60,542 nt of DNA, taken from Clostridiaceae bacterium (GTDB lineage: Bacteria; Bacillota; Clostridia; DSM-8532). Each line of letters opens with the position of its first letter. Position 1 is the first letter of the stretch. A program made the position numbers and the translations under genes. The stretch lies in contig JAAYPS010000042.1 in NCBI GenBank assembly GCA_012519655.1, forward strand, positions 1-60,542, written 5' to 3'. Below are positions 53,009 through 60,285 of the stretch, piece by piece. The notes below the pieces were generated by a model. That model was not told where the DNA came from. It saw only the letters and a program-made list of their open reading frames with translations, and ran no database searches.

Positions 53009-53443
53009 ATGGCGGATATAAGAAATTGCTTACAATGTAACAAAATATTTCAATACATGGGCGGAATAGCTCTCTGTCCTATTTGCAAAAAAGCAGATGA
53101 GGAAGATTTTGAGAAGGTCAGAGTTTATTTACGAGATAACCCGGGCGCAAACATGCAGGAAGTATCTGAGAATACTGGTGTTAAGATTTCAAAGATTAAT
53201 CGCTGGCTCAGAGAAGAAAGGTTGGAAGTTAGCAAAAACAGTGCTGTTTCTATAAACTGTGAAAAATGCGGCGCTAAAATACGAAGTGGAAGGTTCTGTG
53301 CTGAATGCTCCAAAGAGTTAGGCAGGGAAATAATGAAAGCAAGTAATGAGCTAAAAGAAAACTTGAGGCGTGGTGGAAATAGAGGTTCAGTCGAAAAGGA
53401 TGATTTTGGGCTATACTATAAATATAGAAAACCTGCGAAGTAA
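53009..53443 (+). CDS. yvyF: Flagellar operon protein YvyF-like (TIGR03826)
   Basis: 144 residues. An N-terminal zinc-ribbon-like part (CLQCNKIF and CPIC), a helix-turn-helix-like segment (MQEVSENTGVKISKINRWLR) and a second CxxC set (CEKCG, CAEC). Commonly encoded between comF and flgM in Firmicutes; it has been linked to flagellar gene control, but the exact role is unsettled. Confidence 0.88.
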   Translation: MADIRNCLQCNKIFQYMGGIALCPICKKADEEDFEKVRVYLRDNPGANMQEVSENTGVKISKINRWLREERLEVSKNSAVSINCEKCGAKIRSGRFCAECSKELGREIMKASNELKENLRRGGNRGSVEKDDFGLYYKYRKPAK

Positions 53444-53755: not shown

Positions 53756-54046
53756 ATGAAGATTTGGGGTGCCAATAATCCCAAGGTGTTCGGTATTTAC
53801 AATCAACCCAAATCGGTTGATAAAATTAAAAAAAGTGATGTTGTAGCGTCGAGAAGGGATGAATTTAAGATTTCTGGACAGGCAAAAGATTTCCAAGTTG
53901 CTATGAATGCTTTAAAGAAAACACCGGACATTCGGCAGGGAAAGGTTCAGGAAGTTTCCCAGAAAGTAGAGAAGGGACAATATTCAGTTAATAGTGAAGA
54001 CATAGCTGAAAAAATGGTTCAACATCTATTTGGGAAGAGAATTTAA
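53756..54046 (+). CDS. flgM: Anti-sigma-28 factor FlgM
   Basis: 96-residue inhibitor of the flagellar sigma factor, exported when the hook is done. The C-terminal helix pair (KVEKGQYSVNSEDIAEKMVQ) that binds sigma is clear. Its own promoter appears sigma-D dependent, giving feedback. A stem-loop follows it. Confidence 0.93.
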   Translation: MKIWGANNPKVFGIYNQPKSVDKIKKSDVVASRRDEFKISGQAKDFQVAMNALKKTPDIRQGKVQEVSQKVEKGQYSVNSEDIAEKMVQHLFGKRI

Positions 54047-54101: not shown

Positions 54102-54158
54102 GTACGTTTCCGATATATACAATATAGGATAACGCCAATATATCGTGGAGGGCGAAAA

Positions 54159-54662
54159 ATGACTGATGTAATTTGGGTTGATAATCTAATAAAGATTTTT
54201 GAATATGAAATAAAAATATATGCAAAAGTTTTAGAAGAAGCAGAAAACAAAAAGAATGTAATAATTAAAGGCGATGTGGAAGGTTTACAAACAAACGTTG
54301 TAAAAGAGCAGAAGTATATAAATGAGCTAAATAAGCTTGCAGAAGCATCCGAGCAAATCATTGGCCACATTGCAAAAACAACTGGTAAAAAGCGTGAAGA
54401 GATAAATATTTCATACTTAATTAGCATATTACCTGAGGAAAAGGCTAAAAGGCTTTCATCAAAAAGGGACGAGCTTAAACAGATCATTGAAGATTTAAGA
54501 GCGAAAAATGATTTGAATCAAAAGCTAATTGACAACTCTGTAGATTATATCAATTTTTCCCTTAATCTTTTGACACAGCCCACTCCTCAGCCTACACAAT
54601 ACGGAAGCACAGGAAATACCACACAAACAAGTGGTAGAAATGTTTTGGATATTAAATATTAA
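54159..54662 (+). CDS. flgN: Flagellar export chaperone FlgN
   Basis: 167-residue helical chaperone for FlgK and FlgL. Mostly coiled coil (EYEIKIYAKVLEEAENKK, EQKYINELNKLAEASEQI). ATG 54159 follows GGAGGGCG; the longer frame from 54084 runs through the flgM stem-loop region and is not used. Directly before its clients. Confidence 0.92.
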   Translation: MTDVIWVDNLIKIFEYEIKIYAKVLEEAENKKNVIIKGDVEGLQTNVVKEQKYINELNKLAEASEQIIGHIAKTTGKKREEINISYLISILPEEKAKRLSSKRDELKQIIEDLRAKNDLNQKLIDNSVDYINFSLNLLTQPTPQPTQYGSTGNTTQTSGRNVLDIKY

Positions 54663-54676
54663 AGAGGTGAAATCTT

Positions 54677-56683
54677 GTGGCAATTAATTTCATAGGGCTA
54701 GATACTGCTGTATCTGGAATGTATAGTAACCAAAAAGCCCTTGAAGTAACAGGTCATAATATATCGAATATAAGTACTCCTGGGTATGCAAGACAACAGG
54801 CTGTTCTTAGTACTGCAAACACCCAATATGTTGCAAACAATTGGGTTGAAATGGGAGCTAATATACAAGAAATTCGCCAAATCCGCAATATCTTTCTCGA
54901 TAACATATATCGCAATGAAGCAAATGCGCTTGGGTATTGGGAGGCTCGCTATAACAGCGTAAAGGATCTTGAAGCTATATTGGGAGAACCAATGCTTGAT
55001 GGACTTCAAAGCTCATTAAATGAGTTTTGGAATTCGTGGAATGAGCTGTCTAAAGCACCCGATAGCCTTACTATAAGAGCGCTGGTAAAGCAAAGAGGTG
55101 AGTCTTTAGTTTATCATTTAAATCATATGGGTTCACAGATTAACAAGCTTCAAGATGATATTAACACCGAGATTATTAAAAGAATAGATGAAGTAAACAG
55201 CATAACAACAAAGATAGCAAAATTAAACGATTTAGTAATTAAAGCGCAGACAGCTGGCAATAAGGCCAACGACTATTATGATCAGCGCAACTATCTGGTG
55301 GATCAGCTTTCTACTTTGGTTAAGACCGAAATACGTGAGCACCCTAACGGTCATATGGATGTCTTAGTTGGTGGATATTTCCTTGTAAGCAAGACCAAGC
55401 AAACAAATATTGTAGCTGCACAAAACAGTGCATTGTCTCATTTTGTAAGACCCGAAGTAGAAGGGTTGGGTGTTGAGATAAATGTGGGACTAGGCGAGAT
55501 TCAAGGGCTATTGGAGTCAAGAGGAAAGGTTAGCGGTGCAAAAGGAAGTTATGACAACGGCACTCCAAATACAACAGCCGACATAACATTTGCTGTGGAT
55601 GTATCTACAACAAATGAAGCAGACTTAGCCAATTTAAGAAGCAACATGGAAAGCTATATAAATGAAATAAAGAACAAAGGATTAGATTATAACTTGCGTC
55701 TTATAGCCTATGACGGTACGGGAATTATAAGTAATGAAGGCTATGGTAAAAATCAAGAAGGCTTTATAGATGCACTGAACGCTCTGGAAACCACCACTAA
55801 TACAGGCTCGGATTTTGGAGAGGTTGTAGAGGAACTACAAGAAACATTACCTTTTTCAAACAATGCAAACAGGTATTTATATGTTTATACACAGGAAGGT
55901 TTAGGTGGAGATGCCGAGCAAATAAGTAATTTTGCTGATGCTCTTAAAGATAGCAAAATAAATGCTTCTGTTATTACAGATACGTCAGGAGAGTCTGGTT
56001 GGGATGCAATAACTCATGCAACTGGCGGCTCACTGCACGATATTACTAATATAGAAGAAGCTATGTCTAAATTGGGAATAAACACAGTAGAGGATGTGAA
56101 CAAGCAAATTGCCACTGTGGATGATAGCCTTGACATTATTTCATCGGTCAGGAAAATGCTCAATGCTGTGGTAAATATTTTGGCAAGGGAAGTAAATAGT
56201 TTGCATTCATCGGGAAAAACCTTGAATGGTAAAGAAGGTGGACTGTTTTTCGAACCCATAGAAAGTAATATACCTATGGAAATGGGCAATATAAAAATTT
56301 CCGACTCCATAAAGGATTTGAACAATATTGTTGCATCAGTCACAGATAACAATGGTGATAATGTCATAGCACATAAAATTTCAAGTCTTAGAAACAAAGA
56401 TATTATGGAAAGTTTCACTCAGGTTTTAAGTGTTGATTCATATTACCAGCATATAATATTGAGGATTGGGAACATAGGAAATGAAGCACTAAAGACTACC
56501 CAAAACCAAAGGTCACTTGTTCTTGCCGCCGATAATGACAGACAAAGTACAATGGGTGTCTCACTTGATGAAGAAATGAGTAATATGATTAAGTTTAAAT
56601 ATGCTTACAATGCAGCAACTAAAACAATAGGCGTTATAAATGAAATGCTGGACACTTTGATAAATAGAACGGGTTTTAGGTAG
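54677..56683 (+). CDS. flgK: Flagellar hook-associated protein FlgK with inserted vWA-like domain
   Basis: Hook-filament junction protein 1. FlgK ends are intact: N-terminal FIGLDTAVSGMYSNQKALEV and NISTPGYARQ, C-terminal SLDEEMSNMIKFKYAYNAAT and LIN. At 668 residues it is over 120 longer than its paralogue downstream. At about 302-470 lies a von Willebrand factor A-like domain: ITFAVDVSTT (degenerate DxSxS metal site, Asp308), a TGSDFGEVVEELQ helix, RYLYVYTQEG (the VLLTDG strand) and GGSLHDITNIEEA. FlgK resumes near 490 (MLNAVVNILAREVNSLHSSG). GTG start after AAAGAGGTG. Confidence 0.93.
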   Translation: MAINFIGLDTAVSGMYSNQKALEVTGHNISNISTPGYARQQAVLSTANTQYVANNWVEMGANIQEIRQIRNIFLDNIYRNEANALGYWEARYNSVKDLEAILGEPMLDGLQSSLNEFWNSWNELSKAPDSLTIRALVKQRGESLVYHLNHMGSQINKLQDDINTEIIKRIDEVNSITTKIAKLNDLVIKAQTAGNKANDYYDQRNYLVDQLSTLVKTEIREHPNGHMDVLVGGYFLVSKTKQTNIVAAQNSALSHFVRPEVEGLGVEINVGLGEIQGLLESRGKVSGAKGSYDNGTPNTTADITFAVDVSTTNEADLANLRSNMESYINEIKNKGLDYNLRLIAYDGTGIISNEGYGKNQEGFIDALNALETTTNTGSDFGEVVEELQETLPFSNNANRYLYVYTQEGLGGDAEQISNFADALKDSKINASVITDTSGESGWDAITHATGGSLHDITNIEEAMSKLGINTVEDVNKQIATVDDSLDIISSVRKMLNAVVNILAREVNSLHSSGKTLNGKEGGLFFEPIESNIPMEMGNIKISDSIKDLNNIVASVTDNNGDNVIAHKISSLRNKDIMESFTQVLSVDSYYQHIILRIGNIGNEALKTTQNQRSLVLAADNDRQSTMGVSLDEEMSNMIKFKYAYNAATKTIGVINEMLDTLINRTGFR

Positions 56684-56701
56684 GGTTATTCAAAGCAACA
56701 G

Positions 56702-56716
56702 CCTTGCCGGGCTTTT
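56702..56716 (+). terminator. Weak terminator-like stem after the first flgK
   Basis: AGCC pairs with GGCT around TTGCCG, followed by TTTTT. The stem is very short. Confidence 0.35.
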
Positions 56717-56731
56717 TGTGATGTTTAAGAT

Positions 56732-56818
56732 TTAAGTACCGCTGTACAATATGTTGTGGTTATGTGAGAGGGATTATCATCACATATTGCACATCTAATA
56801 TTTATTAAGGTTACATCA
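56732..56818 (+). repeat. Flagellar intergenic element, copy A
   Basis: Shares with copy B (59440-59518) the ordered blocks AAGT, ACAA, TGTGGTTATG, TTATCA, CACATA, CAC and GGTT(T)ACATC. A hairpin core TATGTGA (56761-56767) / TCACATA (56780-56786) is present. It lies 30 bases before flgK2. Confidence 0.65.
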
Positions 56819-56847
56819 ACAAAAGCCTTAAGAAAGGAGTTTTTTAG

Positions 56848-58476
56848 ATGAGCAGGTCATCATTTTTTGGCTTGGATATCGCCACAAGAGGGCTTTATAC
56901 CGCACAACGTGGTCTTACAAATGTAAATCATAATGTTGATAATATAAATACTCCAGGTTACTCAAGACAGGTGTTAGAACAAACTGCTGCTAGACCTATG
57001 CTCATGGTGGACGGCTCCGGAATGCTGGGAACGGGTTCACAAGTTACAGGTATTAAAAGAATTCGGGATGAATATTTGGATGTTAAATACCGTAGCGAAG
57101 CACAGTATCTTGGAGAATGGGATATAAAGAATACACTTTTAGAAGAAATGCAAACTTTGTATAATGAGCCTTCCGATAGTGGGTTTAATACTGTAATGAA
57201 TGAATTCTATAATGGTTTGCAACAATTATCCACAGATCCATCAAGTCATGCAGCCCGTGCTGCCATTAAAGAGAAGGCAGTAATGCTTACCAAGTATTTT
57301 AACAGCGTAGCATCGCATTTTGAATATCTTCAAAACGATGTAAATGATATTATTTATGCAAAGGTGCAGGAAGTAAACTCCTTAGCAGATCAAATTGCAC
57401 AATTAAACAAGCAGATTTATAACTTTGAAGTAACAGGAAATGTTGCTAATGATCTAAGAGATCAAAGAGCAAATGTTGTTGATAAATTATCACGAATTGT
57501 AAATATTGAAGCTTATGAGGTAAGCTATGGAAAACTACCAACTGGTCTTGAAGATATGCGCTTTGTGGTTACAATAAGCGGGAAAGCCATTGTTGATCAT
57601 TATGGTGTTTCACACCTTGAAGCTGTACAGCGCAAAGAGAAATTTAATAGTGAGGATATAGAAAATCTCTATGAAATTGGCTGGGCGGATGGTAACAAGC
57701 TAACAATAAAATCCGGAGAGCTGAAAGGTTATCTTGATGTAAGGGATGGTAATGATGGATTAAATGGGAGCCCTGATTTCAGAGGTATACCGCATTACCA
57801 AAAGAAAATGAATGAGTTTGTTAGGGTGTTTGCCCGCACTTTCAATGAAGGCATTATAGATATTGATGGTGATGGTATTCTCGACAAAGCTCCAGGGCAT
57901 GTTGACGGATATACGTTAAATTCAAAAGATGGAGATACGCCAGCCGGGATACGATTTTTTACAATGTTTGGTGAGGATGGAAAGCCAATGGACAGCGAAA
58001 CATTTGCTCTTGCCGCAGGAGAAGTGCCAGCAGATCCGGATATTGAGTATTATAATGCGATGTATTCTAAAATTACAGCGAAGAATATATCTATTAGCAG
58101 CGAAGTATTTGACAATCCTACTAATAACGTTGCCATAATGGGAGCCGCTGAAGAAATGGGAAATGTAGAAGTGCTAAAAGCTATTATGGACTTAAGACAT
58201 AATACATATATGTTCAACGAAGGTGCTCCCGAAGACTTTATTAAAACAATAATATCAACCATGGGTGTTGACGGTCAGCAGGCTACTCACTATTTAAACA
58301 ACCAAGTTACCATGACTAACCAGATAGAAAACAGACGCCAGTCAATATCGGGTGTTTCAATAAACGAGGAGATGGCAAACCTTGTACGGTATCAGCATGC
58401 ATATAATGCTGCAGCAAAAATGATTCAAACCCATGCCGAATTGTTAGAGGTTCTTGTAAACCGCTTGGGAATATAG
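56848..58476 (+). CDS. flgK: Flagellar hook-associated protein FlgK, second copy
   Basis: 542 residues of ordinary FlgK form: FFGLDIATRGLYTAQRGLTN, DNINTPGYSRQ, and C-terminal VSINEEMANLVRYQHAYNAA. No vWA-like insertion. Two tandem FlgK genes suggest that each subunit takes part of the junction ring or that they alternate. The two differ enough not to be a recent duplication. AAGGAG precedes the ATG. Confidence 0.94.
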   Translation: MSRSSFFGLDIATRGLYTAQRGLTNVNHNVDNINTPGYSRQVLEQTAARPMLMVDGSGMLGTGSQVTGIKRIRDEYLDVKYRSEAQYLGEWDIKNTLLEEMQTLYNEPSDSGFNTVMNEFYNGLQQLSTDPSSHAARAAIKEKAVMLTKYFNSVASHFEYLQNDVNDIIYAKVQEVNSLADQIAQLNKQIYNFEVTGNVANDLRDQRANVVDKLSRIVNIEAYEVSYGKLPTGLEDMRFVVTISGKAIVDHYGVSHLEAVQRKEKFNSEDIENLYEIGWADGNKLTIKSGELKGYLDVRDGNDGLNGSPDFRGIPHYQKKMNEFVRVFARTFNEGIIDIDGDGILDKAPGHVDGYTLNSKDGDTPAGIRFFTMFGEDGKPMDSETFALAAGEVPADPDIEYYNAMYSKITAKNISISSEVFDNPTNNVAIMGAAEEMGNVEVLKAIMDLRHNTYMFNEGAPEDFIKTIISTMGVDGQQATHYLNNQVTMTNQIENRRQSISGVSINEEMANLVRYQHAYNAAAKMIQTHAELLEVLVNRLGI

Positions 58477-58506: not shown

Positions 58507-59415
58507 ATGCGTATTACGAACAACATGCTTATTAATAATATGCTGTCTAACTTAGGTACAAACCTAAATAGAGTCAGTAAAAATCAAAGCCAACTTGCGA
58601 CTGGAAAGAAAATTAATTTACCCTCAGATGATCCAATTGTTGCATCAAGAGCACTGAAGCTGCGCACAGACGTAGCGGAAATTAAACAGTTCAAAAGAAA
58701 TGTTGAAGATGCTACATCATGGATGGAGATAACAGAGACAACTCTCGAGCAAATAGGAGAGGTAATACACAGGGCTAAAGAGTTGGCGGTTCATGCAAGC
58801 AATGGAACAAACACACCCGAGGATATGGAGAAGACTAAACTTGAAGTTGAGCAATTGAAAATACAAATGACTCACCTTGCAAATACTACCTATTCGGGCA
58901 GGTATATTTTTTCCGGCTTTAAAACCGACAAGCCGCTGATGGATGAAGATGGAATATTTCAGATGGACATTGAAAATGGCGAACAAATTTTCTATGAAGT
59001 TGGTATAGGTGATGATATAAATATAAATGTTACTGGAAGTGACGTATTTAATAGTGAGAATAAAGGCATATCCGGTGAAAAAAGTAGTTTAATACAAGTA
59101 TTTGATGATTTTATTGCAGCGCTTGAGTCAGGTGATGAGTCAAATGTGGAACAACTACTTGGTAGAATAGAGAATGAAAGCGATAATGTACTTAGAGTGC
59201 GTGCAGGTGTGGGTGCAAGAATGAATAGGTTGGAGCTTACTGCAAATAGGCTTGATGATGACAATATCAATTTTACAAAACTCATGAGTAAAAATGAGGA
59301 TGTGGACATAGCCGAGGCAATTATGAACTTGATGAATGAATTAAATGTATATAATTCTTCTCTTGCAGTGGGGGCAAAAGTCATTCAACCCAGTTTGGTT
59401 GACTTTTTAACCTAA
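58507..59415 (+). CDS. flgL: Flagellar hook-associated protein FlgL
   Basis: Junction protein 3 between FlgK and the flagellin filament, 302 residues. MRITNNMLINNMLSNLGTNL and LATGKKINLPSDDPIVASRA are the flagellin-like N-terminus; the C-terminal helix has IAEAIMNLMNELNVYNSSLA. Thirty bases after flgK2, same operon. Confidence 0.95.
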   Translation: MRITNNMLINNMLSNLGTNLNRVSKNQSQLATGKKINLPSDDPIVASRALKLRTDVAEIKQFKRNVEDATSWMEITETTLEQIGEVIHRAKELAVHASNGTNTPEDMEKTKLEVEQLKIQMTHLANTTYSGRYIFSGFKTDKPLMDEDGIFQMDIENGEQIFYEVGIGDDININVTGSDVFNSENKGISGEKSSLIQVFDDFIAALESGDESNVEQLLGRIENESDNVLRVRAGVGARMNRLELTANRLDDDNINFTKLMSKNEDVDIAEAIMNLMNELNVYNSSLAVGAKVIQPSLVDFLT

Positions 59416-59582: not shown

Positions 59583-60014
59583 ATGCAACTTCAAACAAGG
59601 CACTTTGGTGTTATAGATGTGAATGAAAAGGAGGCTTTACACTTTCCACTAGGAATACCGGGTTTTGAAAATGTAAAGCAGTATATTTTGCTTGGGAAAC
59701 AAGAGAACGAAAGTCCATTTTTTTGGCTGCAAAGCCTTGACAACCCAGAACTTGCATTTGTGGTTGTAGATCCATTCTATATAAAAGATGATTATTATGT
59801 AGATGTTGATGACGAAGAGATAGAGGAAATACATATAGAGGATAAAGAGAACATATTAATATTGGCTATTGTAACAATACCTGAAGATATTACCAAAATG
59901 ACGGTGAACCTTAAGGCACCCGTACTTATAAATCTAAAAAATAATATGGGAAAACAAGTTGTAATGAAAGATGACACATTTCCTGTGAAATATTATATAA
60001 CGTCAAATGAATAG
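59583..60014 (+). CDS. fliW: Flagellar assembly factor FliW
   Basis: 143 residues. Binds CsrA and flagellin in turn; free flagellin frees CsrA to repress flagellin synthesis. FPLGIPGFENVKQYILL and LDNPELAFVVVDP are family marks. Only 22 bases before csrA. Confidence 0.96.
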   Translation: MQLQTRHFGVIDVNEKEALHFPLGIPGFENVKQYILLGKQENESPFFWLQSLDNPELAFVVVDPFYIKDDYYVDVDDEEIEEIHIEDKENILILAIVTIPEDITKMTVNLKAPVLINLKNNMGKQVVMKDDTFPVKYYITSNE

Positions 60015-60036: not shown

Positions 60037-60285
60037 ATGCTGGTGCTGTCAAGGAAAAAGGGTCAGTCCATTATGATAGGCTCAGACATAGAAATCTCGA
60101 TTGTTGACATACAAGGTGACCAAATCCGCCTGGGTATTGAAGCGCCTCGAAATATTACTATCCACAGGAAAGAAGTATTCGAAGAGATTATAAAGGAAAA
60201 CAAACAAGCCGCCTCTGTAGAGGTTAATCCTGAACTTATAAAATCAATAAAAATAAAAGGCATTGAAAATAAAAAGAGTGAATAA
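60037..60285 (+). CDS. csrA: Carbon storage / flagellin translation regulator CsrA
   Basis: 82-residue RNA-binding dimer. [15 protein letters not shown] and [20 protein letters not shown] are typical; the RNA-contacting Leu and Arg residues of these strands are present. It is expected to bind the flagellin leader directly downstream, with FliW as antagonist. Confidence 0.97.

Follow-up and report, generated by a model that had tools for sequence, protein, structure and literature searches.

A von Willebrand factor A-type domain inserted in the hook-filament junction protein FlgK of Clostridia

Introduction

The junction between the flagellar hook and filament of Salmonella contains 11 copies each of FlgK (HAP1) and FlgL. 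FlgK is generally seen as a conserved adaptor, the outer part of which varies among beta-rich domains in the known structures. The FlgK proteins of Salmonella, Burkholderia pseudomallei and Campylobacter jejuni (2d4y, 9go6, 4ut1, 5xbj) share a D0 + D1 architecture; their D2 (and D3) domains are beta-barrels or otherwise beta, and are joined further along D1. Bacterial adhesins and pilus tips often contain von Willebrand factor A (vWA) domains. Flagellinolysin, a flagellin with an inserted metallopeptidase (PMC5595980), shows that a flagellar axial protein can accept a whole foreign globular domain in one of its outer regions.

Here we describe FlgKa, a FlgK protein bearing one vWA domain, encoded by a 60,542-nucleotide stretch of DNA (hereafter, the window) from a Clostridiaceae bacterium (GenBank assembly GCA_012519655.1, contig JAAYPS010000042.1, positions 1 to 60,542, forward strand). 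FlgKa shares the D0 + D1 architecture of the FlgK proteins listed above, but has no such D2, and its vWA domain separates D1b from the D1 helix that follows. This domain has the complete fold and topology of vWA and integrin I domains (integrin alpha-M, VWF A1, collagen VI, TFIIH p44, the LapA vWFA domain, Mfa5); unlike these, it has an incomplete metal site (MIDAS) and sits in a flagellar axial protein. FlgKa resembles flagellinolysin in the kind and position of its insertion, but whereas flagellinolysin is a flagellin and an enzyme with an active site, FlgKa is a FlgK with a degraded metal site, for which activity is not expected.

In the open-access literature that we searched, which mostly leaves subscription papers outside its scope, we found no description of a vWA domain in FlgK or of a tandem FlgK pair; the co-mentions that we examined concern unrelated proteins. 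For well-scoring relatives, the architecture may already be catalogued in domain databases.

Results

FlgKa is encoded at 54677..56683 (668 aa, GTG start), in the gene order flgM-flgN-flgKa-flgKb-flgL-fliW-csrA, all on the forward strand, which is the usual late flagellar cluster. The neighbouring genes encode the anti-sigma-28 factor FlgM (53756..54046; PF04316, 1.4e-18), the FlgK/FlgL export chaperone FlgN (54156..54662; PF05130, 7.9e-28), a tandem FlgK paralogue, FlgKb (56848..58476; 542 aa), the second junction protein FlgL (58507..59415; PF00669, 2.3e-29, and PF00700, 1.3e-6), FliW (59583..60014; PF02623, 2.5e-45) and CsrA (60037..60285; PF02599, 4e-25). FlgKa is a genuine FlgK bearing one vWA domain: it scores 301.3 bits against TIGR02492 (curated cut-off, 170.75), matches PF22638 (FlgK_D1, 2.1e-46), PF00460 (Flg_bb_rod) and PF06429 (Flg_bbr_C), and flgN and flgL adjoin the FlgK genes. 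It contains no cysteine. FlgKb, which an earlier note made from the sequence had described as a paralogue without the insert, indeed lacks it, and is itself a FlgK (315.9 bits against TIGR02492).

At 53009-53443, 5' of flgM, the window also encodes a small zinc-ribbon/HTH-like protein found in the same place across Clostridia, which we take to be possibly a YvyF-type flagellar regulator. Elsewhere in this genome, on another contig (C66:15504-17018), a 954-aa frame carries two vWA domains above the Pfam cut-off. In another genome of the same genus (G003), FlgK-type matches are weak only; flagella may have been lost there, or the locus may be incomplete.

The vWA domain of FlgKa occupies residues 298-478 (55568..56110, forward strand). 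The range given in the earlier note, 55580-56090 (residues 302-471), departs from this by only a few residues on either side; the peptides quoted are all present in FlgKa, and the insertion of a vWA domain in a FlgK is borne out by AlphaFold2, Foldseek, VIA and matches to PF00092 (VWA) in relatives. The window insert alone, in single-sequence searches of Pfam, NCBIfam and PDB sequences, yields no vWA match, indicating that the domain is below single-sequence detection; weak matches to ROK glucokinase, ANAPC15 and DUF1796 were dismissed as chance. PF00092 is matched by 6 of 10 homologous inserts in one set of relatives (best, 1.3e-8) and by 10 of 15 in another (best, 1.2e-9), while a profile built from the inserts, searched against PDB sequences, matches integrin alpha-M I domains (E 6e-5).

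The AlphaFold2 model of the insert, computed from 10 sequences (pLDDT 81.8, pTM 0.81), is Rossmann-like, with alternating alpha and beta elements in the canonical vWA order (b1-a1-b2-b3-a2-a3-b4-a5-b5-a6-b6-a7), and not the ordinary FlgK D2/D3 domain that the earlier note had named as the structure prediction that would refute its claim. A Foldseek search of the PDB with this model gives 340 matches at E <= 0.001 (best E 2e-9), the matches listed being vWA domains (TFIIH p44, integrins, VWF A1, LapA, BatB), and VIA-align against vWA structures gives Z scores of 17-19. The domain is retained at residues 298-478 in the full-length FlgKa model (pLDDT 84.4).

In that model, the D0/D1 fold of FlgK is intact. 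With the vWA domain looped out, it aligns with 2d4y at Z 34.9 (335 residues, rmsd 1.7) and with 9go6 at Z 32.2 (449 residues, rmsd 2.6); across 2d4y, 4ut1, 9go6 and 5xbj the core superposes at Z 30-35 (335-449 residues for 2d4y, 9go6 and 5xbj). The vWA domain is grafted where D1b ends (GEIQGLLESRG), ahead of the D1 helix with which FlgK resumes (SLDIISSVRKMLNAVVNILAREVN; residues 479-511, 56111..56209, forward strand), a helix delimited by the model and by conservation, and is preceded by an entry linker (RGKVSGAKGSYDNGTP; residues 282-297, 55520..55567, forward strand). In Salmonella FlgK, D1b and the next D1 helix are joined directly (TFRSQDLDQTRNTL), and the beta-barrel D2 comes further on. 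The FlgKa model has no usual D2, an eight-stranded beta-barrel that would follow the D1 helix; residues 512-585 of the model form short elements only.

Other FlgK proteins carry different insertions at this site, which marks it as a general graft point. An insert of 14 residues lies in this segment of Campylobacter FlgK (PMC5691160), FlgKb of two f24 genomes (L219 and L220; 717 and 720 aa) has an insertion of ∼125 residues, and the FlgK of Heliorestis (L045 5977-8277, 767 aa) has ∼245 extra residues, which are not matched by the vWA profile. The ∼125-residue insertion appears beta-rich by eye.

The vWA insert is present in 30 of 61 relatives. In a draw of 391 clostridial genomes, in which the window's own family is over-represented, it occurs in FlgK frames of 34 genomes among the 144-153 with FlgK, some of these frames being shorter or cut by contig ends, and in 8 family codes. 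The mapping proposed in the earlier note places the insertion in many Clostridia, of at least eight families, and it is not confined to this bacterium; among the flagellated Clostridia in the sample, roughly one in four shares the arrangement. In the loci fetched, the domain is always in FlgKa and never in FlgKb. Beyond Clostridia, a phylum-wide profile search gave five matches outside the window genome, in frames of 502-1832 aa that are atypical of FlgK, four of them being far longer than FlgK.

In a tree of 96 FlgK proteins, built with the insert cut out, FlgKa and FlgKb form separate, old clades in which the same families recur. The vWA bearers fall in a well-supported FlgKa clade together with three members that have no vWA domain (L193, L196, L197), one of which, L196, has the same genus code as the vWA-bearing L187. 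A single clade of vWA bearers, corresponding to one gain and no losses, was rejected (AU p 0.003 without the Thermohalobacter locus L042, 6e-6 with it). As the domain and its site are the same throughout, the simplest history that fits these data is one gain, followed by vertical descent with three or more losses.

The gain may, however, be older than the main clade, with further losses, as suggested by two sets of sequences. Thermohalobacter FlgK (L042 5968-7860), which lies outside this clade, has a shortened vWA-like insert without much of the first half, and five vWA-less FlgKa proteins of another family (L192, L194, L195, L212, L213) keep the entry linker (GDVAGYKGSVENGS), either as a scar of loss or because the linker predates the domain.

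The tandem FlgKa/FlgKb pair is widespread in Clostridia (54677-58476 in the window; L179, L180, L186-L189, L192-L213), implying that the junction in these species would be made of two FlgK types.

Discussion

On balance, our analysis suggests that the vWA domain of FlgKa is probably a rigidly mounted outer structural domain of the junction rather than an adhesin, a reading favoured by the combination of a rigid linker, a lost metal site, vertical inheritance and repeated losses. With FlgN as its chaperone, FlgKa would leave the cell through the flagellar type III system, unfolding for passage through the channel and then refolding, and would polymerise into the hook-filament junction ring. The vWA domain would ring the exterior of the junction as its outer domain, replacing the Salmonella-type beta-barrel D2, and would provide a rigidly held, metal-independent protein-protein surface, not a free-swinging adhesin. 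It might pack on neighbouring FlgKa or FlgKb subunits or on the outer domain of the hook, and such packing could tune the stiffness or stability of the junction.

Conservation within FlgKa bears on this proposal. Among 28 vWA-bearing FlgKa proteins, mean pairwise identity is 0.55 in D0, 0.60 in the D1 helices, 0.45 in D1b, 0.49 in the exit helix and 0.55 in the C-terminal helices; the entry linker (0.70) is the best-conserved part of the protein and the vWA domain (0.35) the fastest evolving, as expected of an exposed domain that is mounted in a fixed way. The near-invariant residues of the domain (D302, D308, G335, F380, W442, G451) look mainly structural. Its fast evolution is also consistent with a binding surface that is exposed and under pressure to diversify. 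A domain gained once, passed on vertically and lost repeatedly would suit the role of a dispensable mechanical add-on, and the other inserts taken by this graft point are in line with a structural reading too. Hook protein length (frames of 445-507 aa) shows no difference according to whether a genome has the vWA domain; at that coarse level the hook thus reveals no corresponding change, and we found no structure of an assembled clostridial junction showing vWA contacts.

It appears fairly unlikely that the domain is an adhesive or ligand-binding module on the junction, directed at a substrate, other cells or secreted proteins. The model does match the vWF domain of the Mfa5 pilus tip (Z 18.5) and the vWFA domain of the LapA adhesin, the domain is fast-evolving and presumably exposed, and functional inserts occur in flagellins (proteolytic flagellins, PMC5595980). 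The metal site, whose five positions in the window are D308, S310, T312, T374 and Q406, argues against such a role. The earlier note had rightly called this site degenerate, but had located the defect in Asp-x-Ser-x-Thr; in fact this first motif (D308-V-S-T-T, DxSxT; 55598..55612) has its Asp in 39 and its first Ser in 33 of 40 relatives, and the main lesion is in the third motif (55892..55894), where Q406 replaces an Asp that is present in 8 of 40. The second-motif position, T374 (55796..55798), is variable among relatives, in a loop of uncertain alignment. Subject to that alignment, a full MIDAS (DxSxS, T, D; S/T allowed) is found in 1 of 40 relatives, being incomplete in the other 39, and is lacking in the window FlgKa; classical metal-dependent ligand binding is therefore unlikely, across the family as well as in the window copy.

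Other observations also speak against adhesion: the junction would hold only ∼11 copies near the cell surface, many fewer than the filament could, the linker is rigidly conserved, and the domain has spread over many families by descent and not by habitat-linked transfer. The more specific suggestion of the earlier note, that the domain binds plant fibre, is unsupported, since nothing points to a ligand; given its fast evolution, the near-invariant linker, several losses and a spread over at least eight families, an outer structural domain fits at least as well as binding.

Nevertheless, the face that once bound the metal has some well-conserved loop motifs (FTxESINGDG), which could represent a candidate binding site of another kind. 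It is conceivable, if rather doubtful, that in clostridial flagella with two FlgK types a ring of ∼11 vWA domains at the junction binds a specific partner (an extracellular substrate, the S-layer, neighbouring flagella or the second FlgK ring) via a re-purposed, metal-free face; the junction would then be a functional display or docking collar, not a passive adaptor.

We consider it improbable that the domain is a signal for assembly order, distinguishing FlgKa from FlgKb so that the two build a mixed ring or separate layers, such as FlgKa against the hook and FlgKb against FlgL. Although flgKb directly adjoins flgKa in every vWA-bearing cluster retrieved with enough downstream sequence, and FlgKa and FlgKb have stayed separate clades across families, the pair also exists without the vWA domain (e.g. 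L192, L195, L196, L197, L212, L213), which is thus unnecessary for keeping the two proteins apart. A neutral, functionless insertion in a permissive loop, compatible with at least three losses and with the domain's being the fastest-evolving part of FlgKa, is very unlikely, as the fold, the core residues listed above and the linker have been kept over at least eight families. An artefact, whether by misassembly or through a chimeric contig in which a vWA gene was joined to flgK, is refuted: the window genome is a 198-contig draft, but no support for an artefact was found, and the same architecture at the same site recurs in dozens of independent genomes, several of them single-contig.

The retention by descent of a vWA domain over many clostridial families, always in one of two tandem FlgK paralogues, means that the junction, beyond the beta-rich domains of known structures, accepts whole interaction-type domains too, and raises the question of why two FlgK proteins are needed and what a vWA ring contacts at the base of the filament. 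For the second junction protein, FlgL frames of 559 aa in Maledivibacter (L044, from 7649) and 449 aa in Thermohalobacter (L042, from 10171), versus ∼300 aa in the window, are apparently enlarged by a central insertion.
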